DNA from: Paenirhizobium cremeum
GTDB taxonomy: Bacteria; Pseudomonadota; Alphaproteobacteria; Rhizobiales; Rhizobiaceae
Assembly (NCBI RefSeq): GCF_022884085.1
Contig: NZ_JAGGCS010000011.1
Location: forward strand, 2,576-66,575
Direction: 5' to 3'
DNA: 64,000 nt
A program made the position numbers and the translations under genes. Under the pieces are notes generated by a model, which saw nothing but the letters and a program-made list of their open reading frames with translations, was not told the DNA's origin and did no database searches. Shown here one piece after another: positions 3,375 to 41,304 of the stretch (position 1 is the stretch's first letter; each line of letters starts with the position of its first letter).

Positions 3375-3416
3375 ATCTTTTCCTTCCATGTGTGGGCAGC
3401 TCGAACAGGCCCTTGC

Positions 3417-4292: not shown

Positions 4293-4295
4293 CAC

Positions 4296-5351: not shown

Positions 5352-5384
5352 GATCTACTCCGCTTGCAGCCGTAAGGCAGATGG

Positions 5385-5942
5385 TCAGAATGAAAAGAAC
5401 GGCGGTAAGTCCGCAAGTTTCGGCTGCACCTTGTCCTTCTCCGACAAAACCGCATTGTCGAGGGGCAGCGGCCAATCGATGCCGATTGCAGGATCGTTCC
5501 ACAGCAGGCCACGGTCGCTGACGGCGCTATAGGGCGCTGTTACCTTGTAAGAAATGATGCAATCCGGCACGAGTGTGGCAAAGCCATGGGCAAATCCCGC
5601 AGGGATCCACAGTTGTTCTCCATTTTCCTTGGAAAGCTCGATCCCGTACCACTTGCCATAGGTTGGCGAACCAACGCGGATATCGACGGCGACGTCGAAA
5701 ATGCTGCCGGCGATGCAGCGAACCAGCTTGCCCTGCGCGAACGGATCGAGTTGAAAATGCAAACCGCGCACCGTACCAACCGCCGCGGAAAGTGATTCGT
5801 TTTCCTGAACGAATGTTACGTCCGCCACATTTTCGCGAAACCAGGCGTCCTTGAACACTTCCGAAAAATATCCGCGATGATCGCCCAATCTCGTCGGGGT
5901 GATCTTGGCCAAGCCGACCAAAGGCAAAAATTCAATCTTCAT
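5385..5942 (-). CDS. rmlC: dTDP-4-dehydrorhamnose 3,5-epimerase
   Basis: A 185-aa cupin epimerase acting between RmlB and RmlD. It carries GDHRGYFSEVF near the N-terminus, FVQENESLS, VRGLHFQ with the catalytic histidine, and a PAGFAHGFATL block. The length is standard. I place the start at the ATG at 5942; the GTG immediately upstream is in frame but redundant. It is the promoter-proximal gene of the rml run; the 85 bases upstream hold no gene. Confidence 0.95.
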   Translation of the reverse strand: MKIEFLPLVGLAKITPTRLGDHRGYFSEVFKDAWFRENVADVTFVQENESLSAAVGTVRGLHFQLDPFAQGKLVRCIAGSIFDVAVDIRVGSPTYGKWYGIELSKENGEQLWIPAGFAHGFATLVPDCIISYKVTAPYSAVSDRGLLWNDPAIGIDWPLPLDNAVLSEKDKVQPKLADLPPFFSF

Positions 5943-6030
5943 CACGTACCTGCATCTTTCCTCAGGTCCGTTCTAGTTGGCTGGCATCAGTTTGCAAGAG
6001 GCATCGGATGATTGCCCGGGAATCGCCATC

Positions 6031-7830
6031 CTAACCAGACACCGGCTCTGCCAGTTGTCGTTTGTTTGTCCTGGCTTCTGCAGTTCCATCGAGCAGTTGC
6101 TCAACGAGATCCCGTGCATTGGCGGCGCCGAGCACCATGGGCGATCCGTCGTTCCGCAGCAACGAATGTGCGGAGATGGCAGTTCCATCTCCAGGCGCGA
6201 CCAGCCCGAATGTCCTTACCCCGCGCGCGGCGGCAATCCTGACCACGGAAGCAGTCAGACTTTCCGGGTCCTTTAGGGAATCGCCGGCCGTCAGCAGAAA
6301 ATCTACGGTGCGCAGTATGCGATCATCCTCGGCCATGATGGGTTCGGCCTCGAGGGCGTATGGAATTATCTGGCGTTGGATCAGGGGCCGTGTGGAACCG
6401 GCAAGTGCATGCGGCGTCACCAGGACTCGTAAAAGAACATCCTCTCGGTGACGCAGTTCATCGATAACGGACAAAAGCTGTTCGGAACTCTCCGGGGCAT
6501 CGAGCAACACCGCGACCTCTCCCGCATATGGAGTCTTTACATAACCTGGGCGAATCTTTGTTGTCGCATCGTCGATGAGGGTGGCCCAGGCCTTGCCGAT
6601 GGCTCTGGGGGAATAGGTTGCGGCCAATATTGGCCGAGCAGCGGCGATTGCGGCGGCGCGTTCTTTTGCTCCATCCTTTCCAAGGAAACGACGCAGGCCC
6701 GCTTCCCAGTCGTCGAAGCCCACGGCTCCCGCCAAGGGCTCCATCGAAGCGAGACGGGTTGTCACCACTGGCACGCCATATTCAAGCGCAAGCACTGCCC
6801 GGTTCGCAGACTTCGTGACAGAGAAAGCGTCCATGCCGAATGGCAGCAGACATATGTCGGCCTCTTTGAGGCTGTCAAAAACAGCTTCCGTGGACCAATT
6901 TATATAACGCGTTGGGACGTCGATTTGAGCGATTGCGCTATCGAACAGATCCTTCTTGTTTGAGATAACCGTCAGTTCCAGCGGAATATCTTTGTTCACG
7001 GCTTCAAGAGCCGGAGCTGCAAGCAAAAGAGCCAACATGCCGAAATCGCTATGTGCCGCACCGTAATTTCCGAACCACACGACGGATTTCAGGTGGCCCT
7101 GGGTGGCGCTGTTTGCGCATGCAGACTTTAATTCGTCAACGGTTGCAGCCTGAGGGCCTTTGCTCGGCGGAGGAGGGGTTCTGCGGTCGAGTCGGGAAAG
7201 CCTCGTGCCGAAGAGCCTGAACGCGGTTGAGATTTTGCGTCTCAGGATCATCATCGCGTCTGCCGGATGGCGTGCTGCATGAGCCGCAAACCGAGAGCCG
7301 CGTTGCGCGATGGCGGCAGGCCGTTTCTCGGCGGGTTTTACCGCCTCCTCCTGAAGTCGCTTTGCTGCTGCGAAGCTGGTCCTTGTCTCAATCTGATCGG
7401 GAATGACGACGAAGCGCGCCCCCGGTCTCAATATTGGTCTTAAGGCTTCAGAGAGCGCCGGGCTCGGAACGACGATTGCATCAGCGAAAGCACCAATACC
7501 GGCGAAACGAAGGGCCGGGTGCAGATCGGGTGTTTTGGGGTAGTTCGCCACAATGATATTGTCGCACAGATCGATCAGTACCTTGACGCCCTGATCCTTG
7601 GCCAAGCCTGCCAACTTCACGCTGTCGCTGTCGAGAAGTTTGACGAAAACAATCGCATCGAGCCCTTTAAGGTGTGGAATTACCTCTTTCGAGGAGCGGT
7701 AGAATACGCTTTCTATGTCAAGTTCGCCTAAGGCAAGCGCAGGATAATAACAGCGGTAGCGCGTGCTCGCCACCATGTAGCTGAGCTGGGGGCTGACCCA
7801 GGCAACTCTGGCGCGGGGGAGATCTGTCAT
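6031..7830 (-). CDS. large GT-B-like glycosyltransferase with extra C-terminal module
   Basis: A 599-aa soluble protein with a GT-B layout. The N-terminal half (about residues 8-165) reads STRYRCYYPALALGE, then VLIDLCDN and a VPSPALSEALR block. Residues 170-245 are a basic, proline-rich linker. The C-terminal donor half begins VVWFGNYGAAHSDFG and includes ICLLPFGMD and ALEYGVPVVTT. After about residue 440 comes a further 150-residue alpha/beta-looking module that is not part of a standard GT4. A transferase role in O-antigen assembly is inferred from fold and context; the substrate is unknown. Confidence 0.6.
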   Translation of the reverse strand: MTDLPRARVAWVSPQLSYMVASTRYRCYYPALALGELDIESVFYRSSKEVIPHLKGLDAIVFVKLLDSDSVKLAGLAKDQGVKVLIDLCDNIIVANYPKTPDLHPALRFAGIGAFADAIVVPSPALSEALRPILRPGARFVVIPDQIETRTSFAAAKRLQEEAVKPAEKRPAAIAQRGSRFAAHAARHPADAMMILRRKISTAFRLFGTRLSRLDRRTPPPPSKGPQAATVDELKSACANSATQGHLKSVVWFGNYGAAHSDFGMLALLLAAPALEAVNKDIPLELTVISNKKDLFDSAIAQIDVPTRYINWSTEAVFDSLKEADICLLPFGMDAFSVTKSANRAVLALEYGVPVVTTRLASMEPLAGAVGFDDWEAGLRRFLGKDGAKERAAAIAAARPILAATYSPRAIGKAWATLIDDATTKIRPGYVKTPYAGEVAVLLDAPESSEQLLSVIDELRHREDVLLRVLVTPHALAGSTRPLIQRQIIPYALEAEPIMAEDDRILRTVDFLLTAGDSLKDPESLTASVVRIAAARGVRTFGLVAPGDGTAISAHSLLRNDGSPMVLGAANARDLVEQLLDGTAEARTNKRQLAEPVSG

Positions 7831-8055: not shown

Positions 8056-8184
8056 CTAAGCGGCAGCCGCCTTCTCCGCCTCCAGCAAAATAGGGCAGGC
8101 GGATTTCCACACGCTCCAGTCTGCGTCTTCCAACATGCGAATTGGCCTGGCTTCAGAGCTGTTGATTGATCTCCGGCCTGTCAT
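8056..8184 (-). CDS. small ORF, or detached C-terminal tail of the preceding glycosyltransferase gene
   Basis: A 42-codon frame starts inside the 3' end of the 413-aa glycosyltransferase gene and continues past its stop. It contains MLEDADWSVWKSACPILLEA and ends in a lysine/alanine run. The tryptophan and acidic content looks like real protein rather than a GC-rich shadow. It could be a tiny overlapping gene. It could also be the true C-terminus of the upstream protein, displaced by a one-base shift near 8155-8184. Nothing identifies its function. Confidence 0.25.
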   Translation of the reverse strand: MTGRRSINSSEARPIRMLEDADWSVWKSACPILLEAEKAAAA

Positions 8185-9394
8185 GGTATCTGGAGATGAT
8201 TGCGGCGCGCTCCGTGGCAAGTCCAGCAAGCTTCAATACGCGCTCAAGCTGAGCGGCCATATGGTTGAGCCCGTGATGACTGATGAGCCGTTCGCGCGCG
8301 TTTGCAAGTGTTCGTTCTGCCAGCGCGCGGTCAGCAAGAACTTTCGGAAGTTCTTCGGTCCATTGCGTATCGCCAATCCGCACTGCTGCACCATTCTGAC
8401 TGCAATCTTGATAGATTGGGTGATCCGAGACGATGGTCGGGATACCAGATGCTGAATATTCCACCCATTTCGTATCGGTCTTGGCCTCGTTGAACCGGCC
8501 GGGGCGCAGCGGGGCCAGTCCCCAATCCCAGCGCATGGCGGCAAGCTGACGCAAAAATCCGTCGTAATCGCCGACGGCGGGCAAGTGCTCGACGCGTGCA
8601 CCGAAGGCACCTAGCTCCGGCGGAGGCTGCAACGAGCCGAAGACGGTGAAGTGCAGATCCGGATTGCTGGTAAGGGCTGCGACAACGCCAGGTAATGCAA
8701 GCTGGAGATCGGCGGCGTGACTCGACGACGCCATATAACCAAATCTGGGTCTGATCGAGCCAGCGGAGCCAAGCGTTGAAATCGGATCGCTTGCGCTAGC
8801 AATTTCTCCGACGAACAAGCGAGCAGAGATCTGTGCATGCTCACGCAGTTGTTCAGCCAGTCTTGCCGTCGAGAGGTATGCGGTATCTGCCCCCTTGAGC
8901 AAGGTTCGGATTGCCTGTTGGCGCGCCGGAGCGCCGTATTTCCTGGCTTTTTCGACGCCAGCCTCGGGCGGAACCTCGAAAAGGTTGTCATCGATATGAT
9001 AAACAAGCGGCACGTTCTTATCGGCGCATATTTGCAGAAGCGTTTCGGCAAGCGAGCCGCCATAGCGGCTGACGAATATGAGATGTGGGGCCGCTTGCTG
9101 CCAGGCGTCGGCAAAAAGTTGTTGAGCCGTCCTTCCTGATTTCACAGCAAGACGTTCGTCTTCCTCCGTTACGACCACCATTCGCAGATCGCCAGCCGCT
9201 ACCGCTGCTTGAGCTGGACGAAGAAGATTGATCTGAAGGGTTGCCCCCGCAGCGTCGGCAACTACCAGCAAGCGGAGCTTTGCCCTGTCGGGATCTTCCG
9301 GTCCCAGCAAACGCCCAACCGAACTGGATGATCGATAGCGTCGCTTGGCCATCGATATCAGTCGAGCAAACGAGTCCTCTATCCACTGTGCCAT
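8153..9394 (-). CDS. family 4-like glycosyltransferase
   Basis: A 413-aa GT-B protein. The N-terminal half contains LIFVSRYGGSLAETLL and VYHIDDNLFEVPP, a loop often seen in GT4 enzymes of O-antigen loci. The C-terminal half has FGYMASSSHAADLQL, FTVFGSLQPPPEL and LAPLRPGRFNEAKTDTKW, where a Lys and acidic pair mark donor binding, followed by YSASGIPTIVSD. There is no membrane segment. The ATG at 9394 is the natural start. The last residues overlap another open frame (8056-8184), so the C-terminus may not be complete as read. Confidence 0.72.
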   Translation of the reverse strand: MAQWIEDSFARLISMAKRRYRSSSSVGRLLGPEDPDRAKLRLLVVADAAGATLQINLLRPAQAAVAAGDLRMVVVTEEDERLAVKSGRTAQQLFADAWQQAAPHLIFVSRYGGSLAETLLQICADKNVPLVYHIDDNLFEVPPEAGVEKARKYGAPARQQAIRTLLKGADTAYLSTARLAEQLREHAQISARLFVGEIASASDPISTLGSAGSIRPRFGYMASSSHAADLQLALPGVVAALTSNPDLHFTVFGSLQPPPELGAFGARVEHLPAVGDYDGFLRQLAAMRWDWGLAPLRPGRFNEAKTDTKWVEYSASGIPTIVSDHPIYQDCSQNGAAVRIGDTQWTEELPKVLADRALAERTLANARERLISHHGLNHMAAQLERVLKLAGLATERAAIISRYHDRPEINQQL

Positions 9395-10900: not shown

Positions 10901-11911
10901 TTAGCCCATGATGCGGCGTTTCAACGAACTCAAGGTTCCCAGGATGCCGCTGCTCGCCGCGTGGGCAACGGATGCGGCTGGCCCTTTTTCCTTCGCAAGC
11001 TTGGCCTCGTAGGCTTTCACGGCTGCCGCTCGCTCGCGCGCTGCCTCGTAGACCGCTTTATGCTTGACAAAGCCGGCAGCCGCGTCGATGGCCTCATAGC
11101 GCTTAACCTGTTCCGGCGTGATCGCCCGCACAGGGCCGGCTCCGGCATCCTTGATCTCCTGGATCACGGACGGGCGGATGTAGCCCAGATTGACCTCTTC
11201 CTCAATCTGGCTCAACTTCATCGAGCCATTCTCAAGCATGATGCGAACTTCTTCGAGGAAGAGGTAGCCGGTCGGGTTGTTGGCAAAAACCCAGGGCTGC
11301 GTGTTCATGTCCGTCCAGTGGATCAAGCCGGTCTTGTTGGGCTCGTAGTGCTCCAGGCTATTCCACTCGAACGGCACGCCGTAGTTGATCTCCGACTCAT
11401 CCAGAATGCACATGTCGTAGAGCAGATCCTGATAGGTGTATTGCCCATCGAGGCCGGCAATTATCTTTACCGGATCCCAATCGGAAAGAGCTTCGCAATC
11501 GAGCAGCATCACAGAGCATTGTTTGACGCGCTTCTTGAGTGCGCCGGGCTTAGATTGGTTCTGTGCCTGATCCGGCAGTTCCTCTTGGATGATGACCTTG
11601 GCGCCGTTGAAGGGCAGGTTCCACAACTCCCGGAAGTCGCGGAAGACCAGCATGTCGGCATCAAGGTAGATGGCCCGGCCCTTGTATCCCATCAACTGCG
11701 GAATGGCGAAGCGCGTGAAGGAAAAGCCGGTACGCTTTCCTTGCCTTATATCCTTGGGATCAGGCAGCACCACGTCATGCATCGACCGCAGCTTGATATT
11801 CATGCTGGTGTGGCGCTTGATGGAATGCTCGAGAACAGGGACCGCGAGAAGCTGTGATCGGTCCGAGCCCACGAATATGTAGGCGGTGTCGCTGTCATTC
11901 TCGTTCGTCAT
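10901..11911 (-). CDS. family 8-like glycosyltransferase
   Basis: A 336-aa GT-A enzyme resembling the GT8 family, which uses UDP-hexoses. It opens with TAYIFVGSDRSQLLAVPVL, has the metal-binding DxD in AIYLDADMLVFRD and carries LLDCEALSDWDP and GLIHWTDMNTQPW later. The C-terminal 60 residues are charged and helical. I choose the ATG at 11911 because it follows GGAG with six bases of spacing, trimming 13 residues from the longest frame. It diverges from the methyltransferase gene at 12162, so the region between them probably carries two promoters. Confidence 0.7.
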   Translation of the reverse strand: MTNENDSDTAYIFVGSDRSQLLAVPVLEHSIKRHTSMNIKLRSMHDVVLPDPKDIRQGKRTGFSFTRFAIPQLMGYKGRAIYLDADMLVFRDFRELWNLPFNGAKVIIQEELPDQAQNQSKPGALKKRVKQCSVMLLDCEALSDWDPVKIIAGLDGQYTYQDLLYDMCILDESEINYGVPFEWNSLEHYEPNKTGLIHWTDMNTQPWVFANNPTGYLFLEEVRIMLENGSMKLSQIEEEVNLGYIRPSVIQEIKDAGAGPVRAITPEQVKRYEAIDAAAGFVKHKAVYEAARERAAAVKAYEAKLAKEKGPAASVAHAASSGILGTLSSLKRRIMG

Positions 11912-12161
11912 GCCGAACTCCATTCTTGCCTGAAATAATTCCTCGCGCACGAGTAGCGCCGGACTCTAAGCACCTTTAGCGTCGTAAGCAAGCCATACGC
12001 TCGGCCGTTCACCGGGCTGAATACAGATTGATTGTCATGGATTTAGCATTTCGCAACTTGTTATGCGATGTCGCTCGAGCCGCCTGAGCCAAGGACCAGT
12101 CCGGATACCGGCTTGAGTAACAAGGCCTCATGCGGTACAGAGCGGTCGAAGGGAAACGGAA

Positions 12162-13085
12162 ATGAATGTCTTGAAGAAGATTTTGAAGTCTTTCAGCGGT
12201 TCTTCCGCGAACCGTGTGAATGAGATGCCTGTCGCCCATGAGGTACAGGTGCCCGCCAAGGATGAGGCCCCGGCACCTGCCGCGCCTCAGAAGGTGGAGG
12301 AGAAGACGGTTTATCCGGCAGGCGAGGTTCCGATCCCTGGCGTCGACAATCTTCCTGACGACGAACTCGATCGCTTGAACAAGCTGCTGCCGTGGGCGGC
12401 TTTTGTTCTGGATAGCAAGGGGCGCCAGTTCGGTGTCGCGCATTCCGCGATCAAGCGCAACGTTCCGCAGGCAATGCCTGATCCGCGTATCGTCGAGCTT
12501 GATCGGCGCATTCCGTTGCGTGATCTGACCGTGTTTGAGATCGGCTGTTTCGAGGGTATTCATACCTCCGCGCTGGCAATGCGCGCCCGGCGTGTGCTGG
12601 CCTGTGACAGTCGCATCGAAAACGTTGTCAAGAGCATCGTCCGCTGTGCCATGTACGGAACGTCTGCGCACATCTTTCGCTGGGATGCTGAGGAAGCCTT
12701 GCCTGCCGGCGTTTCGGTCGATTGTGATGTGCTGCACCATGTGGGCGTTCTGTATCACCTGACGGACCCGGTCGGACATCTGAAGACGTTGTTGTCGCAC
12801 GTGCGCAAGGGGGTCATGCTCGACACCCAGATCGCGCCAGAAGATGCAAAGGCGCTTACCTACGAATCCGGCGGACGGACATACCGATATCATCACTATC
12901 GCGAAGCGGGTCGTGAAGCGCCGTTTGCCGGCATGCTCGATCACGCCAAGTGGTTGTTCAAGGACGATTTGCTGGCGCTTTTGGCCGAGGCTGGCTTCGA
13001 TTCCATCGATGTGGCCAATTTCGAGATACAGCGCAACGGTCCCCGTATCCTGATCTATGCAACTCGCAGCAGCAGTGGCAGCTGA
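12162..13085 (+). CDS. class I SAM-dependent methyltransferase
   Basis: A 307-aa protein. Residues 1-60 are low-complexity and rich in Pro, Ala and Glu. The catalytic part resembles CmoB-like/Methyltransf_23 enzymes: LTVFEIGCFEGIHTSAL for SAM motif I, RVLACDSRIENV for motif II and DCDVLHHVGVLYHLTDP for motif IV. It heads a plus-strand operon with an ABC exporter, a second methyltransferase and an acyltransferase, so sugar or terminal-residue methylation during O-antigen synthesis is more likely than tRNA modification; this is inference. The ATG follows a GGGAAACGGAA stretch. Confidence 0.7.
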   Translation: MNVLKKILKSFSGSSANRVNEMPVAHEVQVPAKDEAPAPAAPQKVEEKTVYPAGEVPIPGVDNLPDDELDRLNKLLPWAAFVLDSKGRQFGVAHSAIKRNVPQAMPDPRIVELDRRIPLRDLTVFEIGCFEGIHTSALAMRARRVLACDSRIENVVKSIVRCAMYGTSAHIFRWDAEEALPAGVSVDCDVLHHVGVLYHLTDPVGHLKTLLSHVRKGVMLDTQIAPEDAKALTYESGGRTYRYHHYREAGREAPFAGMLDHAKWLFKDDLLALLAEAGFDSIDVANFEIQRNGPRILIYATRSSSGS

Positions 13086-13152
13086 GACGGTCGGAAAGCC
13101 GCTGGTAGCGGGCGCGCAGCTAAATTCAGGCAATGAGAAGGCCGCGAAAGCA

Positions 13153-13953
13153 ATGATGCAAACCTTTGGCGAGATCTCGCGCAGCGCTCGGCTGGCGTGG
13201 GATCTTGCGCATCGCGACATAGCCAGCCGCTATGGCAATTCCATCGGCGGTCTTTTGTGGCTTGTAATCACCCCCGTGAGTTTCGCGGGGATTTACTGGA
13301 TGGTTTTTGGCTATTTCCTGCAACTTAAGTGGCTCAACCCTGCAACGGGGGTGCAGGTTCCTTACATCGTGCCGCTTTTTGCTGGTTTGGCAACCTACCT
13401 GCTTATCAATGACGTTGTCATGTCGTCGTTGTCGACCTTCAGGATGAAGCGGGAATATGTCAGGAGGGCCGCGGTTCCCATATGGGTGCTGTGGCTTTCG
13501 ACGCTGATGCGCGTTGCTGTCGGTTCGGTGGTGAATTTCGTGGTTCTGGCTGCCATGGCCTTTTTCACGGGGCTTATGTCGCTGAATTCTCTATTGGCGA
13601 TTCCCCAGGCGTTCCTGCTGGTGGTGGTCGCCGCAAGCGCTCTTTCTCTCTTTCTTTCGCTGCTTGGCCCGTTTTTCAAGGATCTTGACGAGCTTTCGCG
13701 TATTCTTCTGCGCGTGCTGTTCTATACTTCGCCGGTTACGTATCCCCTTAGCGCGGTGCCCGAGCGTTTTTCTGGCTTTATGTGGGCCAACCCTTTGACT
13801 GTTCTCGTCGAAGCTATACGCAATTCGTTCGTTTTCGGATTGCCGCCAGCGCCTGTTTCTTATGTCGTGACGTTCGCTTCTTCCGTGGCACTTTTTGGGG
13901 CGGGAATTTGGCTTTATTCACGCCTGAGAGGACCGATCGTCGATGTCGTCTGA
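13153..13953 (+). CDS. wzm: O-antigen/polysaccharide ABC exporter permease (Wzm-like)
   Basis: A 266-aa inner-membrane protein of the ABC-2 type that forms the channel for undecaprenyl-linked polysaccharide. The cytoplasmic N-terminus carries LAHRDIASRYGNSIGG, typical of Wzm/TagG. About six hydrophobic segments follow, beginning LLWLVITPVSFAGIYWMVFG. The SPVTYPLSAVPE loop and VLVEAIRNSFVFG are also characteristic. I use the ATG at 13153, which has an upstream GAGAAGG, rather than a frame opening at 13057 inside the preceding gene. It overlaps the ATPase gene by 11 bases. Confidence 0.88.
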   Translation: MMQTFGEISRSARLAWDLAHRDIASRYGNSIGGLLWLVITPVSFAGIYWMVFGYFLQLKWLNPATGVQVPYIVPLFAGLATYLLINDVVMSSLSTFRMKREYVRRAAVPIWVLWLSTLMRVAVGSVVNFVVLAAMAFFTGLMSLNSLLAIPQAFLLVVVAASALSLFLSLLGPFFKDLDELSRILLRVLFYTSPVTYPLSAVPERFSGFMWANPLTVLVEAIRNSFVFGLPPAPVSYVVTFASSVALFGAGIWLYSRLRGPIVDVV

Positions 13954-15178
13954 TGTGCTTCTGCAAGCTCACGGTGTCTCCAAGACATATTCCATGTCAT
14001 TGTCTCCTCGCGAGCGATTTTTCGAGGCGGTCTTTGGCTGGAGACCGAACAAGCCGCACCATGTGGTGCTGGAAGACGTGGACATCGAAGTTCGTCGGGG
14101 TGAGACGCTTGGCATCATGGGCCGCAACGGCGCGGGCAAGACCACGCTGCTCGGCATTCTTGGTAATGTAATCGAGCCGTCTGCCGGCACCATCACGCGC
14201 CATGGCCGCATCGCCGTCCTGCTTGCTGTAGGGGCCGGCTTCAATCCACAGTTTACCGGTCGTGAGAATGCCGAACTCTTTTGCAGCCTGATGGGTCTGA
14301 GCAACGCAGAAACCGCCGAGCGCATGAGTTCCATTATCGCGTTCGCCGATCTTGAAGACTACTTCGACATGCCGCTCAGAACCTACTCGTCAGGCATGAT
14401 GGCGCGCCTCGGTTTCGCTTGTGCGATCCATGTCGATGCTGATGTTATCATTATTGATGAGACTTTGGCGGTCGGCGATGCCAATTTCCGTGTCAGATGC
14501 TATGAGCGTATCAAGCACATGCAGGATAGTGGCCAGACATTCCTTCTCGTCAGCCATAGCCCAAACCTGATCGCCAACTTCTGCACGCGGACGATTGTCA
14601 TCGAGAAAGGCCGAAAGGTGTTCGACGGCTCTCCCCTGGATGGACTCAACACCTATAAGGATATTCGCGAAAATCTTGCGGCCGGGAAAAAGCCTGCCAC
14701 GGGGGGTGTCAACGGCTCCGATCTCGTGGCGCCAAAGCTTCGACTTGAGAATGTTCGCTTCAACGAGGTTACGGGCGACAACGGTGTCAAACGTGGCATT
14801 TTGACCTGTGAACTGTTTGCTGAGGCCGATGTTGCAAATCCTGTCGTGAGTTTCGGCATCCGCAACCAGGAAGGGATCGTGATCTGCAGCTACGACAGCG
14901 AGCGTGACGCGAACCAACTGAAGCCGCTTTCGAGCGGTGAACGGCTGCCGCTGGTGCTGCAGTTCGACAATATCCTGCTCGCAGGAGCCTATTTTATCAG
15001 CGCGCGTGTAGCCGAACAGGTCGGTGACGTGACGCTTACCCTCGGGACCCATCACAACGTCGCCCGTTTTGACGTCGTAAGTAGAGGGACAAACTCGGGG
15101 CTGGTTAATCTCAACGCAACGCTGGCTACGGCCAGCGCTTCGCATAATGACGGTACGTCACAGGTAGCAATTGGATGA
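13943..15178 (+). CDS. wzt: O-antigen ABC exporter ATPase with C-terminal Wzt domain
   Basis: A 411-aa ATPase partner of the permease. The N-terminal 240 residues are the nucleotide-binding domain: Walker A GRNGAGKTT at 60-68, signature YSSGMMARLGF and Walker B ADVIIIDETLAVGD. From about residue 265 to the end is a beta-sandwich like the Wzt C-terminal domain, which in known systems binds a terminal modified sugar and couples chain capping to export. Flanking methyltransferase genes fit a methyl-capped chain, though that is inference. Start and stop overlap the neighbouring genes. Confidence 0.9.
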   Translation: MSSDVLLQAHGVSKTYSMSLSPRERFFEAVFGWRPNKPHHVVLEDVDIEVRRGETLGIMGRNGAGKTTLLGILGNVIEPSAGTITRHGRIAVLLAVGAGFNPQFTGRENAELFCSLMGLSNAETAERMSSIIAFADLEDYFDMPLRTYSSGMMARLGFACAIHVDADVIIIDETLAVGDANFRVRCYERIKHMQDSGQTFLLVSHSPNLIANFCTRTIVIEKGRKVFDGSPLDGLNTYKDIRENLAAGKKPATGGVNGSDLVAPKLRLENVRFNEVTGDNGVKRGILTCELFAEADVANPVVSFGIRNQEGIVICSYDSERDANQLKPLSSGERLPLVLQFDNILLAGAYFISARVAEQVGDVTLTLGTHHNVARFDVVSRGTNSGLVNLNATLATASASHNDGTSQVAIG

Positions 15179-16469: not shown

Positions 16470-18533
16470 ATGGTAGCTGAGGCCGCAATCTCAGGGAGTG
16501 TTCGTGTGGCCGAAAACGACGGGCGAGTTGAGTTAGCAGACAAGGCGGCGAAGGTTTTACCTCGGCAACTGCGCATCGCGGTGGTGGCGCGGGATATAGA
16601 CGGGGTAAATGAGCGGCTTATTCGGCGAGCGTTGTGGCCAGCGTCGATCTGGCAATCGGCTGGCTATAGGGTCGACATTCATCTGACGCCGCCGCCGCGA
16701 AAGCGGCTGAAGCGTTACGCCGCGCTTGTGATGATCGAGCCCTCACTTACAGACGAGTTGAACTGTTGCGACGAGGCAGTCAGGCTCGGCTTGGCGCTCG
16801 TTATCGATGTCGGTTTACCTGAAGCAATCCGTCTTTCCGGTCAGAGCCGGCTAGCCGCAATTTCTGCGACGACCCGTGATTGCCTGGCATTGGCAACGGT
16901 CATCACAGCGAGGTCTTCTGCAGCGGCGGAAGACCTCGCCAGCCTTGTGCCTGTCGACGTGGAAACGGTGGTGATTCCGGATCCATCTGAGGCTGCTACT
17001 CGGAAAGCCCGGTTGTTGGAGGTCTTCCGGGGTGAGCTTCGCGGAGCAAGGATACGAAGCCGCTTGTCGTCGGTGCCGCAGCAGTGGCTGTCGCCGCGAA
17101 GTCCGCTTGTTGCTCCATGGCGCATGTTCAATATGGCGCGCTCGATTCCGTTTTCCTGGTGGCTGACGCGCGTGCCCAGCGCAGTGGCAAGACGGATTTT
17201 GAGGCGATTTGGGTTGATCGCTGGTCGGGCGTCCGAAGCGTCATCCGAAGTAGAGGCAAAGCCGGCATCGAAGGCAGCGGACCATGGCGTTGTGGCCACG
17301 CCCGTCGCAGATGCCAGCCGTCAACTCACGCCGCATGTGGACCCGGCGACAAGTGCGCGGCAATGGATCGACGTTATGGAGCGCGCCCTACTGACCGCCG
17401 CGACAGGGCTAAAGCAGGCACCGCGGGTTAAAGTCCTATTTTTGCTGGACCTGATCCAGGATCTTGATGTGCTGTTGCCGATTGTGGAGCGGATGCGCAC
17501 CGATCGCCGTTTCGCATTAACAGTTGCAGTCACAGACTGGCTGGACAAGGTTTCCCCGCGGGTATCGCGCGAACTGTTCGCTCGGTCGGTGATCCCGCTG
17601 GTGATTACCAAGAAGGACGCTATCGAGGGGTCGGAGCCTGACCTCGGCCGAATAAATGCTGTCGTCACGGCCTGTGAAACCAATCACCCCGCGCATCGCG
17701 TACCCCATGCGGTTGTGCGTCGCGCCAACAGTCGCGGCATTCCGACTTATACGCTCCAACACGGGCTGGAGAATGTCGGGCTTACCTATTTCGAGTCTTA
17801 TCCCGATCACGAAGGTCCGATCGAAATGGCTTCCTCGACCATTCTGACCTGGGGGCCAGTCGAGAAGCTGCCGGCAGAGATGAACCCCATGATGCGGGTA
17901 CGCTGTCTGGCTGTCGGGACGCCTAAGCCACCGCAGGCAACAAGGGTGGAGTTGCCTCTTCGGTCGCAGGGGATGGTCGTGGCAGTGTTCGAGAACCTGC
18001 ATTGGGAGCGTTACACCGATATCTATCGCGGCGCCTTCATCCGGGATCTTTGCGAGGTCGCGGCCGCGCGCCCGGCCATAACGTTCCTTTTAAAGCCACA
18101 TCACGCGGGCAAATACCTTGCCAAAAACAATCATCTGCTGGCGGATGCCCCGAGCAACATCGTTTTGGCCGATCCTTCGGTGCAGCCTTGGGAAGCCTAC
18201 ACAGCCAGCGCAATTATCGGCTCTGTCGATGCGGTTATCACAACGCCGTCCACGGTCGCTCTCGATGCTGCCCGAGCAGGTTGCGCCGTCGCGGTTGTTG
18301 GTTATGGAATGGCGCTGCCGGTTTATGAACCTTTGCCGGTTTTGACCGGCACTGGCAATTGGCTGAGTTTCATCGATGACGTTACCGCCAGGTCGATCGA
18401 TTTGCAGTCTCGTCTGGAAGAATTTCGCATGCGACATGTTGTGGAGGGCGACGCCGTTGGTCGTATCCTTGATAAAATTCTCGCGGACGCCGGCCGCGTT
18501 AGCGAAGTGAAGCGGTCAGAACAAAAGGCATGA
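16470..18533 (+). CDS. two-module glycosyltransferase-like protein
   Basis: A 687-aa protein with two recognisable parts. Residues 35-175 look like the N-terminal half of a GT4 enzyme (LRIAVVARDIDG, ALVIDVGLPEAI, VITARSSAAAEDLA, VVIPDPSEA), matching the layout of the 599-aa protein at 6031-7830. A variable linker follows. From about residue 315 a GT-B-like module reads VKVLFLLDLIQDLDVLLP, then YTLQHGLENVGLTYFESY, FLLKPHHAGKY and DAVITTPSTVALDAARAG, resembling CDP-glycerol/Kdo-transferase-type folds. A GTG at 16506 behind GGGAG is an alternative start. Substrates are unknown. Confidence 0.55.
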   Translation: MVAEAAISGSVRVAENDGRVELADKAAKVLPRQLRIAVVARDIDGVNERLIRRALWPASIWQSAGYRVDIHLTPPPRKRLKRYAALVMIEPSLTDELNCCDEAVRLGLALVIDVGLPEAIRLSGQSRLAAISATTRDCLALATVITARSSAAAEDLASLVPVDVETVVIPDPSEAATRKARLLEVFRGELRGARIRSRLSSVPQQWLSPRSPLVAPWRMFNMARSIPFSWWLTRVPSAVARRILRRFGLIAGRASEASSEVEAKPASKAADHGVVATPVADASRQLTPHVDPATSARQWIDVMERALLTAATGLKQAPRVKVLFLLDLIQDLDVLLPIVERMRTDRRFALTVAVTDWLDKVSPRVSRELFARSVIPLVITKKDAIEGSEPDLGRINAVVTACETNHPAHRVPHAVVRRANSRGIPTYTLQHGLENVGLTYFESYPDHEGPIEMASSTILTWGPVEKLPAEMNPMMRVRCLAVGTPKPPQATRVELPLRSQGMVVAVFENLHWERYTDIYRGAFIRDLCEVAAARPAITFLLKPHHAGKYLAKNNHLLADAPSNIVLADPSVQPWEAYTASAIIGSVDAVITTPSTVALDAARAGCAVAVVGYGMALPVYEPLPVLTGTGNWLSFIDDVTARSIDLQSRLEEFRMRHVVEGDAVGRILDKILADAGRVSEVKRSEQKA

Positions 18534-20338
18534 TGAAGGTTCCCGATATGCCAACGTTACCCCGGCGCCTCCTTGCGGCTCTGCGCAGACGACTTGGCGA
18601 AAGCTCGAAGGCTCCCCCCCAGGCACATGCTGAAGGCCCGTTGACGTATGCCTATTGGGTAAGCCGCTACGCGACAATCGGTTCCTCCGAGCGCCGCCGT
18701 CTCGTTGATCTACAGCAGAAACTCGTCAGGCCGCCGCTGATGTCGGTGCTGATCGACGCGCAGAATGCCGGTCCCGAGCAAATCGAGCTGACCCTGCGTT
18801 CCATAAGTGAGCAAACCTATGATCGCTGGGAAGTAATCCTCGTCAATCTCCCTGCCGAATGCCGAATCCGGAAGGACGGGGTACAAGTCAAGATGTTTAC
18901 GGCCAAGCGGTTCGATAGCGGGGTCGTTGAAAAGTTGCTGGAGATCGCCTCGGGTACGCTTCTCGTGCCGGTAACTGCAGGGGATCAGTTGTCCCCGGCA
19001 GCTTTGACGGTTTTCGCGCTTGGATTTGCGGAAACGCCCCATGCGGTCGCGCTCTACGCAGATGAGGATCGCATCGATTTAGCCGGGCGACACACCGATC
19101 CCTGGTTCAAGGGCGCCTGGAGTCCCGATCTAGTGTTGGCCCAAGCCTATACCGTAAGGTCATGCGCTTTGAACCGCGAGGTGGTTGAGGCTGCAGTCTC
19201 GCAAGTCATCGATTCATGCTCGTTGACAAGCGTAACCTATGCGATCTGGCTGTGGATTGCTGCACATGACGAGCTTTCGATCCGGCATCTGCCGTTCCCG
19301 CTTTATCATCAAAGGGCCGATGCGCCTCGCACGGAGCCTGCCGCCTTTGCTGATGTAGTCCGGACTTCACTTTTCGTGCGACAGCATGGCCTTGAAATTC
19401 GCAGCAATGACAACACGGGAGCCGGCTTCCGTCATGTTGTCTGGCCTACGCCGTCCCCTGCTCCACGAATATCCCTTTGTGTCCCGACACGCGATCGTGT
19501 GGAATTGCTCTCGAACTGCATCGAAGGGCTGCGTCACCGTACCGACTGGCCTGATCTCGAGATACTCATTGTTGATAATGGTAGTGTCGAGGCAGAAACC
19601 CTTGCCTATCTCGGCAGCCTTGTGAGCGACCCACGGGTAAAAGTGCTGCGTGATGATGGTCCGTTCAACTTCTCGCGGCTTAACAATCTTGGTGCTGCAG
19701 CCTCAACCGGCACGTTGTTCGGCCTCATCAATAACGACCTCGCCGTCAAGGAAGCCGGCTGGCTGCGTGAAATGGCAAGCCTTGCCGTGCGTCCGGATGT
19801 CGGTGCCGTCGGAGCGCTGTTGCACTATGGCAACGATACGGTTCAGCATGCTGGCGTCGTGATGGGAATCGGCGGTCTGGCTTCCCATATCCACAAGGGC
19901 CTACCCGCCGGGCAGCAGGGCTATCAGGGTCGCGTGGCGGTAACGCAGGATGTGACATGTGTCACCGCGGCGTGCCTTGTCACGCGGCGTGATGTTTACG
20001 ACCGTCTCGGTGGACTGGATGAGGAGCGTTTCCCCGTTGCATATAATGATGTGGACTTCTGTCTGCGTGTGCGCAGCGCCGGGCTCAGGGTGATTTATAC
20101 CCCACATGCCCTTTTATATCATCTGGAGTCTGCTTCTCGCGGGCGTGATGATGGAGGGGCGCGCCGGGCCCGGCTTGAGCTCGACAAGGCAGCCATGCGG
20201 GAAAGATGGGGAGAGAAACTCGCTGAAGATCCATTCTACAGTCCAAATCTCTCCAACAAGGCCACGGATTGCCGACCGGCATTTCCTCCACGTGTCTTGC
20301 CGCCATGGGCAGAGGCCTTCGGGGATCAGGGTGTTTGA
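18530..20338 (+). CDS. two-domain family 2 glycosyltransferase
   Basis: A 602-aa protein. Residues 60-300 form an N-terminal GT-A-like domain (MSVLIDAQNAGPEQIELTL, then ALYADEDRIDLAGR). Residues 315-540 form a clear GT2 domain: RISLCVPTRDRVELLSNCI, LIVDNGSVEAET, LFGLINNDLAVKE in the DxD position, and YNDVDFCLRVRSAGLRVIY. Such tandem GT2 proteins are common in O-antigen loci, where they may add two residues. It overlaps the preceding stop by four bases and is the last gene of the plus-strand operon. Confidence 0.8.
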   Translation: MMKVPDMPTLPRRLLAALRRRLGESSKAPPQAHAEGPLTYAYWVSRYATIGSSERRRLVDLQQKLVRPPLMSVLIDAQNAGPEQIELTLRSISEQTYDRWEVILVNLPAECRIRKDGVQVKMFTAKRFDSGVVEKLLEIASGTLLVPVTAGDQLSPAALTVFALGFAETPHAVALYADEDRIDLAGRHTDPWFKGAWSPDLVLAQAYTVRSCALNREVVEAAVSQVIDSCSLTSVTYAIWLWIAAHDELSIRHLPFPLYHQRADAPRTEPAAFADVVRTSLFVRQHGLEIRSNDNTGAGFRHVVWPTPSPAPRISLCVPTRDRVELLSNCIEGLRHRTDWPDLEILIVDNGSVEAETLAYLGSLVSDPRVKVLRDDGPFNFSRLNNLGAAASTGTLFGLINNDLAVKEAGWLREMASLAVRPDVGAVGALLHYGNDTVQHAGVVMGIGGLASHIHKGLPAGQQGYQGRVAVTQDVTCVTAACLVTRRDVYDRLGGLDEERFPVAYNDVDFCLRVRSAGLRVIYTPHALLYHLESASRGRDDGGARRARLELDKAAMRERWGEKLAEDPFYSPNLSNKATDCRPAFPPRVLPPWAEAFGDQGV

Positions 20339-21069: not shown

Positions 21070-22746
21070 TCAGTTTCCGAGAATACCGGGGAGACGAAGC
21101 CCCTTCTCGCGGGCGCAATCGGCTGCGATGTCATAGCCGGCGTCGGCATGGCGCATGACGCCGGTCGCCGGGTCGTTCCACAGAACACGCTCGAGGCGGC
21201 GGGCGGCATCATCGGTACCGTCGGCGCAGATGACCATGCCGGAGTGCTGAGAAAAGCCCATGCCGACGCCGCCGCCATGATGCAGCGAGACCCAGGTCGC
21301 ACCGGACGCACAGTTCAAGAGCGCATTGAGCAGCGGCCAGTCTGATACGGCGTCGGAGCCGTCCTTCATCGCTTCCGTCTCCCGGTTCGGGGAGGCGACG
21401 GAGCCCGAATCGAGGTGGTCGCGGCCGATGACGATCGGCGCCTTGAGCTCGCCGTTGCGGACCATCTCGTTGAAGGCGAGACCCAGCTTGTGGCGATCGC
21501 CGAGGCCGACCCAGCAGATGCGGGCGGGCAGGCCCTGGAAGGCGATGCGTTCGCGCGCCATGTCCAGCCAGTTGTGCAGGTGCTTGTTGTCGGGAAGAAG
21601 TTCCTTCACCTTGGCATCGGTCTTATAGATGTCCTCCGGATCGCCGGAAAGCGCCGCCCAGCGGAAGGGCCCGATGCCGCGGCAGAAGAGCGGACGGATA
21701 TAGGCCGGCACGAAGCCCGGAAAGGCGAAGGCGTTCTCGAAACCTTCCTCCTTGGCGACCTGGCGGATATTGTTGCCATAGTCGAGCGTGGGGATGCCCA
21801 TGTTCCAGAAATCGACCATTGCCTGCACATGCACTTTCATGCTGGCACGCGCCGCCACTTCTACCGCCTTCGGGTCGCTTTCCTGCTTCGCCCGCCATTC
21901 GGCGACTGTCCAGCCGGACGGCAGATAGCCGTGGATCGGGTCGTGGGCGGACGTCTGGTCCGTGACGATATCGGGCTTCACGCCGCGGCGCACGAGTTCA
22001 GGGAAAATCTCTGCGGCATTGCCGAGCAGGCCGACGGATTTGGCTTCGCCGGCCTTGGTCCACTGGTCGATTAGTGCCAGCGCCTCGTCCAGCGTATGCG
22101 CCTTGGCATCGACGTAACGGGTGCGCAGGCGGAAATCGATGCGGGTCTCGTCGCATTCGACGGCAAGGCAGCAGGCTCCGGCCATGACGGCGGCGAGCGG
22201 CTGGGCGCCGCCCATGCCGCCGAGGCCGCCGGTCAGGATCCACTTGCCCTTGAGGTTGCCCCCATAATGCTGGCGGCCGGCCTCCACGAAGGTCTCGTAA
22301 GTGCCCTGCACGATGCCCTGGGTGCCGATATAGATCCAGGAGCCGGCGGTCATCTGGCCGTACATGGCGAGACCCTTCTTGTCCAACTCGTTGAAATGAT
22401 CCCAGGTCGCCCAGTGAGGCACGAGGTTGGAATTGGCGATCAGCACCCGCGGCGCGTCTTTGTGGGTGCGAAATACGCCGACCGGCTTGCCGGACTGCAC
22501 CAGCAGCGTCTCGTCTTCCTCCAGCGTCTTCAGCGTGGCGACGATGGTGTCGAAATCGTTCCAGGTGCGGGCCGCGCGTCCGATGCCGCCATAGACCACC
22601 AGCTCATGCGGGCGCTCGGCGACATCCGGATCGAGATTGTTCATCAGCATGCGCAGCGGTGCTTCGGTCATCCAGCTCTTGGCGTTCAGCTCCGTTCCGC
22701 GCGGGGCACGGACATCGCGGATGTTATGACGTGGGTTGGAAGTCAT
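21070..22746 (-). CDS. hutU: urocanate hydratase
   Basis: A 558-aa NAD-dependent enzyme converting urocanate to imidazolonepropionate, the second step of histidine breakdown. The length matches the family and conserved segments run throughout: [67 protein letters not shown], and [19 protein letters not shown] toward the C-terminus, where the active-site cysteine is expected. It lies 24 bases after hutG in the minus-strand operon. Confidence 0.97.
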
Positions 22747-22770
22747 GCGGGTTCCCCTGTCGAATGATGG

Positions 22771-23571
22771 TTATCGTTTCAAGTCCGGCGCGATCTCTTC
22801 CATGCGCACCAGAATGTTTCTGAGGTAAGTTCGGAGACGTTCCGCCCTTGTCGCATCGTAAGCGAAGGGCGGCGCCTCGGTCTGAAGATGGGTCGATTGG
22901 GCAAGTTCCATCTGGATCGCGTGAACGCCATCCTCCGGCCTGCCGTAGTGCCGGGTGGTCCAGCCGCCCTTGAAGCGGCCGTTCAGGATGCTGCTGTGGT
23001 CGGTTGCCGCTGCGGTGATGTCGACGGCGATCTTCTCGATTTCCGGGGCGCAGGTGCGGCCCATGTCCGTGCCGATGTTGAAATCCGGTAGCCTTCCTTC
23101 GAAGAGAAAAGAGATGCGCGAGCGGATCGAGTGGCAATCATAGAGGATCGCCACCCCGTGAATGGCTTTAACCCGCTCGATCTCGGCCGTGAGAGCGGCA
23201 TGGTAAGGCGCATGAAATTGCTCAAGCCGCCTCGCGATCTCGGCTTCATCCGGCGCTTCGCCGTCCTTCCAGATCGCCGTGCCGTCGAAATCCGTTTCCG
23301 GCACGAGGTCGGTCGTGTTCTGGCCGGGGTAAAGGCTGACGCCTTCCGGATCGCGGTTTGCATCGATGACATAGCGGTGGAATGTGGCCCGAACCGTCGT
23401 TGCCCGGGGTAGCAGGCCGGCATAGAGTTCGTGGATATGCCAATCGGTGTCGGCAAGAATCCTGCCGTTGTCGTTCAACCGTTCCCAAATGTCGGGCGGA
23501 ACTTCGGTTCCGGTATGCGGAAAGCCGAGAATGACAGGGGAACTGCCTTGCTGGACCTCAAATACGTCCAT
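22771..23571 (-). CDS. hutG: N-formylglutamate deformylase
   Basis: A 266-aa amidohydrolase releasing formate and glutamate from N-formylglutamate, the last step when HutF is used. The N-terminus MDVFEVQQGSSPVILGFPHTG contains the family SxPHSG-like block, and ILYDCHSIRS supplies metal-binding residues. YVIDANRDPEG is also typical. I use the ATG at 23571, one base after the hutH stop, instead of an upstream frame extension into hutH. Confidence 0.93.
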   Translation of the reverse strand: MDVFEVQQGSSPVILGFPHTGTEVPPDIWERLNDNGRILADTDWHIHELYAGLLPRATTVRATFHRYVIDANRDPEGVSLYPGQNTTDLVPETDFDGTAIWKDGEAPDEAEIARRLEQFHAPYHAALTAEIERVKAIHGVAILYDCHSIRSRISFLFEGRLPDFNIGTDMGRTCAPEIEKIAVDITAAATDHSSILNGRFKGGWTTRHYGRPEDGVHAIQMELAQSTHLQTEAPPFAYDATRAERLRTYLRNILVRMEEIAPDLKR

Positions 23572-23572
23572 A

Positions 23573-25108
23573 TCAGCTCTCCAGGACCGGGAGGATATCG
23601 GCCGAGACGGAGGCATTCAATGCTCCGGTGGCGATGAGATCGCTCGCCGCCTTGAGATCGTCGGCCATGTAGCGATCAAGCTCAAGGGTCGGAATTGCCT
23701 CGCGGATCGTGGCGATCGCTTTTTCAAGTTCCGGGCTCGTTGCAAGCGGGGCCCGAAATTCCACACCCTGCGCTGCGGCCAGCGCCTCGATGCCGATAAT
23801 GCCGAACAGGTTTTCAGTCATCTGCAGCAGCCGGCGGGCGCCGTGGCAGGCCATGGAAACGTGATCTTCCTGATTGGCCGAAGTCGGCGTGGAGTCGACC
23901 GAAGCCGGATGTGACATCTGCTTGTTTTCGCTCATCAGCGCTGCCGAAGTCACTTCAGCGATCATCAGGCCGGAGTTGAGGCCGGGTTTCTTGGCGAGGA
24001 AGGCCGGTAGGCCATAGGACAGCGCGGGATCGACGAGAAGGGCGACACGCCGCTGGGCAATCGCGCCGATTTCACAGACGGCAAGGGCGATCTGGTCGGC
24101 GGCAAAAGCCACCGGCTCGGCGTGGAAATTGCCGCCGGAAACCACCGAATTGTCCGAGAGCACCAAAGGGTTGTCGGTGACGGCGTTCGCTTCGATTTCC
24201 AGCGTGCGTGCCACCGAGCGCAGGAGATCGAGGCAGGCGCCGTCGACTTGCGGCTGGCAGCGGATGCAATAGGGATCCTGCACGCGTTCGTCGCCCTCGA
24301 TATGGCTCCGGCGAATGACGGAATTATCGAGCAGGGCGCGAAGCGTTGCAGCTGTATCGATCTGTCCCTTATGCCCGCGAAGCGCATGGATGTCCGGATG
24401 GAATGGTGCGGAAGATCCCATGGCCGCATCGGTCGACATGGCACCGGTAATCAGCGCCGCCTGTGCCGCCCGGTGCGCCCGAAAGAGGCCGGCAAGCGCC
24501 AGCGCGGTTGAGGTCTGGGTGCCGTTGATCAGCGCCAGACCTTCCTTGGCGGCCAGTACGACCGGCTCCAGTCCCGCCCTTTCGAGGGCGGCGGCGCCGG
24601 AAAGCCGCTCGCTGCCGAAGAAGGCTTCGCCTTCACCCATCATCACGGCGGCCATATGAGCCAGTGGAGCAAGGTCGCCCGAGGCTCCGACGGAGCCTTT
24701 TTCCGGAATGACCGGTGTTACGCCTTTTTCCAGCATGGCCTCGATGAGGCGGATCAGTTCCAGCCGCACACCGGAGGCGCCGCGACCGAGCGAAACCAGC
24801 TTCAGCGCCAAGATCAGGCGAACGACGTTTTCCGGCAGGGGAGCGCCGATGCCGCAACAGTGGGAGAGGATCAGATTGCGCTGGAGTGTCGCCACGTCGG
24901 CGCTGTCGATCTTGATTGAAGCGAGCTTTCCGAAGCCTGTATTGATGCCATAGACGGGTGCATTGCCCTTGGCGATCTCGGCGATGCGGGCCGCGCCCCT
25001 GGCGATGTTGTCGTCGGCGGCGCGATCGAGTATCGCCGCTTCGCCATCCCAATAGACAGCGGCAAGCTGCGAGAGCGTTACGCGACCGGGAATGAGCGTG
25101 ATGGTCAT
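23573..25108 (-). CDS. hutH: histidine ammonia-lyase
   Basis: A 511-aa enzyme that deaminates histidine to urocanate. The Ala-Ser-Gly triplet that self-cyclises to the MIO cofactor lies at 142-144 in [15 protein letters not shown], and the active-site tyrosine is in [10 protein letters not shown] (about 51-60). [14 protein letters not shown] near the C-terminus is conserved. The start at 25108 overlaps the hutI stop (ATGA) and gives the standard family length; the longer upstream frame would intrude into hutI. Confidence 0.97.
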
Positions 25109-26367
25109 GCCTTGATCCTTTGTCCCTTGTAAACTCTTGCATGAAGCGGGTTGAAGCCGATGCGGTAGACAAGCTCGGCGGGGGTCTCGACATTCCAGAT
25201 CGCGAAATCGGCGGATTTGCCGGCTTCGAGCGTGCCCGTTTCCTCCAGCAGCCCGAGGGCGCGGGCGCCCTCGCGGGTCGCGCCGGAGATGCATTCCTCG
25301 ACGGTCAGGCCGAAGAGTGTCGCGGCCATGTTCATGGCCAGCAGGAGGGATGTCAGCGGAGAGGTGCCGGGATTGCTGTCGGTGGCGACGGCGATGCGCG
25401 TGCCGGCGTTGCGGAGGGACTGGAGCGGAGGCTTCTGCTTCTCTCTGATGGCGTAGAAGGCGCCAGGCAACAACACGGCGACGGTGCCGGCCTTCGCCAT
25501 GGCCCTCGCGCCCTCGTCATCGAGATATTCGAGATGGTCGCAGGACAGTGCCCCGTAGGAGGCCGCCATCTTCGCTCCCCCCAGATTGGAGAGCTGTTCG
25601 GCATGCAGCTTGACGGGGAGGCCCAGCGACTTTGCCTTGTCGAATACGCGTCGCATTTCGTCCACCGAAAAGGCGATGCCTTCGCAAAAGCCGTCGACCG
25701 CGTCGACGAGACCCTCGGCGTGAGCCGCTTCCAGGCCCGGCAGAACGATCTCGGCGATGTAATCGCCGTTACGGCCCTTGTACTCAGCCGGCGTCGCATG
25801 GGCCGCCAGCCAGGAGGTGATGACGCGCACCGGGCGGATTTCCTGAAATCTGCGCGCAGCCCGCAGCATCTTCAGCTCTCCTTCGATGTTCAGGCCGTAA
25901 CCGGATTTGACCTCGATGGTGGTCATCCCTTCCGCCAGCAGCGTGTCCAGACGCGGTAGCGCAGTCCTGACGAGACCTTCGACATCGAGCGCATTGGTGG
26001 CCTGGACGGAGGAGACGATGCCGCCGCCGGCCCGGGCAATCTCTTCATAGGTCGCTCCTTCAAGACGCATTTCGAATTCGCGCGCGCGGTTGCCGCCATA
26101 GACGATGTGGGTGTGGCAATCGACCAGGCCCGGAGTGATCCAGCGGCCGTCCAGGTCGTGCCGCGAAGCAGCGTTCCGTGCTTCCGGGGGCAAGTCGGCC
26201 ATCTTTCCGACCCAGGCGATACGTCCGTCGCGAACCAGCAGCGCGCCGTCGTCGATGATGCCGAGGCCCGTTCCTGTGGGAGCGAGCGTTGCGATACGGG
26301 CGTTGGACCAGAGCGTTTCCCGCTCCAGGCGTTCGTCGTCCGATATGGAAGTATCGTTCCCGGTCAT
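25105..26367 (-). CDS. hutI: imidazolonepropionase
   Basis: A 420-aa metal-dependent amidohydrolase opening imidazolonepropionate to formiminoglutamate, the third step. Metal ligands appear in [27 protein letters not shown] and [15 protein letters not shown], and the [16 protein letters not shown] block supplies the catalytic Asp. VKSGYGLN is typical. The ATG at 26367 has AAAGGG nine bases upstream; another ATG at 26385 would add six residues. It is the first gene of the minus-strand hutI-H-G-U-D operon, reading away from the operator at 26397-26408. Confidence 0.95.
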
Positions 26368-40242: not shown

Positions 40243-40259
40243 TTCGTACCCTTTGCGAT

Positions 40260-41219: not shown

Positions 41220-41304
41220 CCTATCCCTTGTGCGGTCGTCATTTTTCAGCAGATCCGTGGGCAGTTGCCGAATTTCGGTTCTGGGAACATTGCTTCTCCG
41301 GCAA

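Follow-up and report, generated by a model that had tools for sequence, protein, structure and literature searches.

A 687-residue protein of a Paenirhizobium cremeum polysaccharide locus as one probable half of a duplicated and reciprocally stripped double glycosyltransferase

A reading frame of Paenirhizobium cremeum, located in a 64,000-nucleotide stretch of DNA (the window), raised the question of why one protein should begin like the N-terminal half of a GT4 glycosyltransferase and continue as a different GT-B-like module. The frame and its parts, with the basis of each assignment in brackets, were as follows:

16470 to 18533, plus strand: the 687-aa ORF, comprising the a_N remnant, a basic segment and a complete module B (ATG start, 687 open codons)
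16563 to 16994, plus strand: a_N, a degenerate acceptor lobe of GT4 module A, residues 32-175 (profile match to the A N-lobe)
16995 to 17249, plus strand: basic segment, residues 176-260, conserved and at the site of the basic insert found in several A modules (charge)
17421 to 17789, plus strand: B_N, the module B acceptor lobe, residues 318-440, with ETN..HR and TLQHGLENVGLT (alignment, lobe HMMs)
17757 to 17765, plus strand: QHG, residues 430-432, present without exception in the 14 aligned members (B alignment)
17955 to 18497, plus strand: B_C, the module B donor lobe, residues 496-676 (lobe HMMs, alignment, Kps match)
17991 to 18002, plus strand: ENLH, residues 508-511, 34 residues before KPHH, at about the site of QXXXD in the Kps family (alignment)
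18093 to 18104, plus strand: KPHH, residues 542-545, the likely equivalent of the (K/R)XHP nucleotide motif (alignment; motif from the available part of PMC12887879)
18246 to 18254, plus strand: PST, residues 593-595, a serine/threonine pair (alignment)

The same architecture was sought in other loci and was found as full-length orthologues in Rhizobium sp. CCGE 510 (locus L005, 71% identity) and in G317, a genome of the window's genus (L006, 63% identity), which brings the known carriers to three genomes including the window's. The gene order around the 687 gene was common to the window and L005. With the protein as the query, matches were obtained in 2 of 63 genomes of the genus and in 4 of 297 genomes of the order, the window's own being counted in each case; the other three in the order were two partial relatives and one chance match. 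The latter (G004, L004; E 1.2e-4, residues 201-322, one internal stop), which coincides in part with a 500-aa open frame in a different phase, was rejected. No relatives were found in the viral contigs and phages searched. Comparison of the 687-aa protein to Pfam, NCBIfam, PHROGs and PADLOC yielded no credible family for any part: Pfam returned no family at E values up to 1, and the only PHROG row (E 0.29) was not credible. The PDB sequences gave three chance-level rows (E 0.29 and above) for the whole protein and no match for two profiles of module B. AlphaFold models of residues 29-258 and 313-687, built from two-row alignments, were too poor to interpret (mean pLDDT of 43.8 and 35.7, respectively). 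The literature search returned no description of the A/B-type domain combination, the subscription literature being mostly outside reach, so that its absence is not proven, and no paper on strain CCGE 510.

The origin of the N-terminal region was determined by profile comparisons and lobe HMMs, the latter run on 26 proteins and on 471 frames of at least 150 residues from 12 sources, with 5,200 shuffled proteins and the same 471 frames reversed as controls. The initial annotation had noticed that residues 35-175 are laid out like the first half of a 599-aa glycosyltransferase encoded nearby, and this resemblance was traced to homology with the module A acceptor lobe over residues 32-175. The a_N profile (residues 31-250 of the three orthologues) matched the A_N profile at 94.9% (hhalign, E 4.4e-8, 143 columns), and scored 0.4% against the A donor lobe, below 1% against the B lobes and 0.2% against the N-lobe of the C-type GT4 described below. 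When the A_N set was divided, a_N matched the A_N of the intact A-B fusions (see below) at 91.1%, the 599-type A_N at 41.5% and three other A proteins at 5.5%; far A or C-type N-lobes gave 0.2%. Searched one sequence at a time, the A_N HMM found a_N weakly in two of the three 687 proteins (E 0.013 in the window's, 0.053) and scored C-type GT4 proteins alike (0.038 for the window's, and a better 0.0042 for the frame at its place in L005). The A_C profile picks out the 599 family as well as the fusions and further A proteins but found no GT4 donor lobe in 687, in agreement with the missing donor half noted earlier. Only 8 (window), 7 and 7 of the 30 A_N positions identical in four functional A copies were kept in the three 687 proteins, and the first D alone remained of DLCDN. 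With these losses and no donor lobe, the earlier suggestion of a bifunctional enzyme was not supported.

The segment that follows a_N carried a net charge of +13 in the window and of +14 and +9 in the orthologues, and may serve in docking. A membrane anchor or helix in residues 176-260 was considered and rejected, as the hydrophobic moment did not rise above that of shuffled sequences (the best value was reached by 149, 608 and 202 of 1000 shuffles in the three 687 proteins, and by 58 to 784 of 1000 across the 11 segments tested) and the positive charge alone stood out.

The second module had been placed near residue 315 and likened to CDP-glycerol or Kdo transferases. The alignment of 12 family members confirmed a start at about residue 318, with the complete module B covering residues 318-687, and the likeness was upheld by profile matches of 95-96%. 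The strings quoted in the initial annotation are present in the translation, and the pairing of a GT4 N-terminal half with a different GT-B-like module was borne out by this alignment together with the a_N match. Extended to 14 members (seven solo-type, five AB-type and two distant), the alignment contained 13 invariant columns, which included QHG, the H of ENLH and the R behind it, the H of (K/R)PH, the serine of PS(S/T) and the following D. The nucleotide motif read RPHP or RAHP in the seven solo-type, KPHH in the five AB-type and RPHR in the two distant members, and the S-S/T pair was present. None of the 14 rows had QXXXD 30-50 residues before (K/R)XH; stray copies lay nearer in three rows (-10, -16 and -29), and the 12 close members had ENLH or ENMH at the expected site. 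Module B is a family for which the Pfam, NCBIfam and PDB sequence libraries searched offered no credible match.

The 599-aa protein is encoded on the opposite strand of the same locus:

6031 to 7830, minus strand: the 599-aa partner, a complete GT4 module A and the b_N remnant (BLASTP, lobe HMMs)
7381 to 7818, minus strand: A_N of 599, residues 5-150 (lobe HMMs)
6556 to 7083, minus strand: A_C, the GT4 donor lobe of 599, residues 250-425 (lobe HMMs; Pfam PF13692 below its cut-off)
6151 to 6525, minus strand: b_N, a degenerate module B acceptor lobe, residues 436-560 (profile match to AB-type B_N)

Compared directly, the two proteins were most similar between residues 292-429 of 687 and 408-543 of 599 (BLASTP E 4e-5), which indicates that 599 also carries part of module B. 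Consistently, the b_N profile matched AB-type B_N at 95.8% (E 7.5e-9) and a wider B_N profile at 75.6%, while the remaining profile-profile comparisons of a_N and b_N reached at most 3.4%. With the AB-type B_N HMM, b_N was detected in each of the three 599 proteins (E 1e-7, 1.3e-5 and 0.0027). The B_C profile, which finds 687, the fusions and solo B, detected nothing in 599. The C-terminal extensions of five A proteins from solo-type loci did not qualify as b_N, at 0.2% to B_N. Of the 31 B_N positions that do not vary among five functional copies, 7 were kept in each of the two 599 remnants compared, with the 599 of CCGE 510 lying outside that alignment; the losses included Q330, D331, ETN, HR and the QH of QHG. 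The 599 and 687 proteins co-occurred in all three genomes known to carry 687.

The pair is surrounded by further polysaccharide genes:

2490 to 5945, minus strand: dTDP-rhamnose-type gene set of a nucleotidyltransferase, an RmlD-type protein, a dehydratase and an RmlC-type protein (annotation)
8153 to 9394, minus strand: C, a PF13524-type GT4 that accompanies A/B in several further loci (gene annotation, comparison)
10901 to 11950, minus strand: GT8-like gene, sharing 54% identity with its counterparts next to the A-B fusions (sequence comparison)
13057 to 15178, plus strand: Wzm/Wzt-type ABC exporter, its ATPase with a Wzt C-terminal domain (Pfam, NCBIfam searches)

The cluster also contains methyltransferases and a hexapeptide acyltransferase-like protein and, together with the rhamnose-type genes and Wzm/Wzt, this content fits an ABC-transporter-dependent O-polysaccharide. 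Immediately downstream, positions 18530-20338 encode a 602-aa protein with two GT2-like stretches, which shares 4 bases with the 3' end of the 687 gene and has a 42% identical relative at L025:33-1514, in a Pararhizobium sp. A13 locus with A and B. Histidine-utilisation-type genes (urocanase, N-formylglutamate amidohydrolase, aromatic amino acid lyase; 21070-25294) border the cluster, and a second polysaccharide locus with a pyruvyl-transferase-like and a flippase-like gene lies at 39217-44666.

The search for module B in other genomes revealed both modules intact in a single chain. Of 398 genomes searched with the B profile, five matched, the window's own counted, and one of them (G836, of the same phylum but another class) encodes an 803-aa intact A-B fusion. 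A search with the G836 sequence matched 2 of 119 genomes of its family, G836 counted, and identified a second fusion in G1118, 43% identical to the first and read as 806 aa from an internal ATG. The two proteins (L027 and L038/L039) contain A_N, A_C, B_N and B_C in one chain; the C genes near them are 30-32% identical to the window's, and the gene content of A(B), GT8 and C is common to the window and both fusion loci. The fusions thus resemble the window's pair in the A acceptor lobe, the B module, their order and the nearby GT8 and C genes, and differ in that a single undivided chain of about 800 aa retains both donor lobes; the papers searched contained no account of them. In these two genomes A and B are fused, whereas in the three rhizobium-like genomes they are split. 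In the fusion loci, the C-terminal part of a 660-aa protein (L027:649-2631) matched Capsule_synth (PF05159) and a 672-aa protein (L039:16739-18757) was matched by tblastn with a KpsS-like query; the N-terminal halves of both appeared GT8-like by eye.

The B family is rare: the B profile, run on a sample of 385 genomes from the window's class, matched the window's genome and no other. Seven solo-type B genes were found, with A directly upstream at five; the remaining two belong to G262, one having A two genes upstream and the other lacking A beside it. B was fused to a C-type GT4 in two genomes (L025:7989-10205; L003:1492-3867, L003/L029), and in L035 A was joined to a further GT4. In loci of several bacterial orders, B was either a neighbour of A (and often of C) or joined to it in one chain. 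Because the genes are adjacent, fused or split together across loci, a shared glycan is the most likely target of A, B and often C; for the window this would be a Wzm/Wzt-exported, probably rhamnose-containing O-polysaccharide. G262 also encodes an 837-aa (L035:3782-6295) and an at least 854-aa (L034:3-2564) protein, each consisting of a complete A followed by a middle domain and then another GT4-like module, Pfam having been run on the 837-aa protein alone. The middle domain, which might be a B_N remnant, gave 26.6% to B_N and 18.4% to AB-type B_N.

Both remnants appear to have remained under selection. Between species, the dN/dS of a_N was 0.16 and 0.21 (the third pair was saturated), that of b_N 0.20-0.25, and the working lobes gave 0.06-0.14, the linkers (687 residues 251-300; 599 residues 151-245) 0.34-0.60 and the 599 tail (residues 561-599) 0.35-0.90. 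Since dS was high (0.75-2.5) or saturated, in which case no ratio was calculated, weight was placed on the rank order of the values, which was the same in pN (a_N 0.19-0.32, b_N 0.20-0.24, working lobes 0.08-0.16, linkers 0.33-0.46). Both remnants are stripped of most invariant residues, yet are under continuing constraint. In single-lobe trees, b_N grouped with AB-type B_N, away from the solo type, and a_N with the near A set (100/100 each). The remnant branches were long, and alternative branchings inside these groups were not separated (AU p 0.15-0.54); dating of the duplication by these trees failed, and an origin of the remnants by recombination is also compatible with them.

From the anatomy of the two proteins and the intact fusions elsewhere, we infer that 599 and 687 descend from a duplicated fusion. 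The ancestor would have been a double glycosyltransferase with GT4 module A followed by GT-B-type module B, and its two copies would have been stripped reciprocally: the 599 copy would retain a whole, active A and the B acceptor lobe as a remnant, and the 687 copy a whole, active B and the A acceptor lobe as a remnant. Descent from a double glycosyltransferase that is intact elsewhere would explain the domain combination of 687, which had looked unfamiliar and possibly new. We consider duplication with reciprocal loss and retention of the remnants the best explanation overall, and a probable one. The remnants may survive as scaffold or docking surfaces that hold A and B together. A comparable case is offered by PssG and PssI of Rhizobium leguminosarum, two homologous, probably duplicated glycosyltransferases reported to interact and to have complementary functions (PMC9961541); in contrast to 599 and 687, they have the GT-A fold and serve the same reaction step, and the available text of that paper describes no reciprocal module loss. 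A bolder version, in which 599 and 687 would form an obligatory two-chain enzyme, each with the partner's dead lobe as its docking domain, and B would found a QXXXD-independent family of CMP-ulosonate GT-B enzymes, seems doubtful to us.

The composition of 687 could also have arisen by shuffling, a free A N-lobe having been joined to a solo B gene with no duplicated fusion behind it. Modules do recombine elsewhere, as the B-C fusions (L003/L029, L025) and the A joined to a further GT4 (L035) illustrate. However, the mirror remnant in 599 would require a second event, both remnants and B are of the AB type and none of the solo type, and the order of a_N and B_N in 687 is that of the fusion. Reciprocal loss is favoured because one ancestor explains both remnants, whereas shuffling needs two events, and we regard the latter as improbable. 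Far less plausible still is that 687 is an ordinary single glycosyltransferase with an unrelated, uninformative extension: the lack of a credible Pfam, NCBIfam or PHROGs match anywhere in the protein would agree with this, but the extension specifically matches the A N-lobe of the fusion by profile and is conserved in three genomes. Compatible with the duplication history, the N-terminal domain might instead be functional in acceptor binding or regulation, with 687 recognizing the product of A and adding the B sugar. The constraint on a_N and the basic segment (dN/dS 0.16-0.24) would be expected of such a domain, but 22-23 of the 30 residues invariant in functional A lobes are lost, which still leaves room for lectin-like binding, and there is no donor lobe to close the GT4 site; this role appears rather unlikely. 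If the duplication and reciprocal loss are correct, 599 and 687 would provide a concrete example of the breakup of a multi-module glycan synthase, with stripped lobes kept under selection, and they make it testable whether pseudo-domains hold successive transferases together in polysaccharide assembly.

Regarding the donor of module B, its profile resembles those of cytidine-nucleotide GT-B enzymes of the Kdo- and CDP-glycerol-transferase families, although it matches neither Pfam PF05159 Capsule_synth nor PF04464 Glyphos_transf directly. The B profile matched KpsC/KpsS-type donor lobes at 96.1% (115 columns) and PF04464-type loci at 95.3% (330 columns), with Epimerase_2 (57.3%) and GT4 A (3.6%) as controls. 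Upon removal of the two distant members, these values were 90 (Kps), 92 (PF04464-type), 0.3 (Epimerase_2) and 1.6% (GT4 A), and the seven solo-type sequences alone gave at most 5.3% to the Kps or PF04464-type profiles. The Kps set consisted of 17 sequences from 15 of the 17 frames tried, among 20 PF05159 loci (L055 and L061 were dropped), and has QXXXD by construction, because its sequences were chosen for QXXXD before KXHP. The L083 frame in the donor-family comparison covered 765 of 909 aa and ends at the locus edge. Genes for Kdo metabolism were searched for with Novosphingobium queries. kpsF was found near A-B in three of six solo-type loci (Parasedimentitalea, G218 and Novosphingobium), accompanied in Novosphingobium by kdsA and kdsB; no Kdo genes were found in the 64 kb of the window, L005, the 46 kb of A13, the G262 contigs or the two fusion loci. 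The Novosphingobium Kdo genes sit in a cluster with KpsC/KpsS-like genes, which could account for them. CMP-Kdo is present in a Gram-negative host, where it serves the lipid A core.

On these sequence comparisons, the donor of module B is likely to be a cytidine nucleotide, for which CMP-Kdo is the single best, though still tentative, guess; B would then transfer from CMP-Kdo, or from a similar ulosonic acid donor, and would do so without the QXXXD nucleophile that retaining Kdo transferases employ. Module B could alternatively be a polyol-phosphate transferase using CDP-glycerol or CDP-ribitol, given that its PF04464-type match is longer than the Kps match and that the AB-type rows alone favoured it (95.0% versus 91.3%). 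The PF04464-type set, however, comprised seven low-scoring family members (five over the cut-off) with donors not established, and the neighbouring pathway genes noted were kpsF, kdsA, kdsB and a NeuB-family gene, in a search that covered Kdo-type genes. A polyol-phosphate donor is hence the less expected of the two, and we doubt it.

Multi-module glycan transferases are a known kind of enzyme, whereas the B family is uncharacterised, and module B is a candidate cytidine-nucleotide transferase. According to the available text of PMC12887879, (K/R)XHP is common to sialyltransferases and retaining Kdo transferases, and QXXXD carries the nucleophilic Asp in WbbB, KpsC and KrkA. WbbB (a GT99 Kdo module with further GT modules) and KrkA (GT140) are O-antigen or capsule glycosyltransferases with several modules per chain, one being a modified GT-B that uses CMP-Kdo (PMC9587256, PMC12887879 and PMC11231755, in the parts available). 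Compared to them as described there, B lacks QXXXD, and the window's modules are split with remnants kept. In KpsC/KpsS (PF05159; KpsC is GT107), the (K/R)XH motif and the S/T pair align with those of B; in contrast, AB-type B has no QXXXD, HH in place of HP and no Pfam match. In another genome (G994, L033:5920-9229), a distant B relative of 410 aa adjoins the NeuB-family gene and a gene that appeared PseG-like by eye, without a Pfam match, which suggests that this relative may be a nonulosonate transferase.
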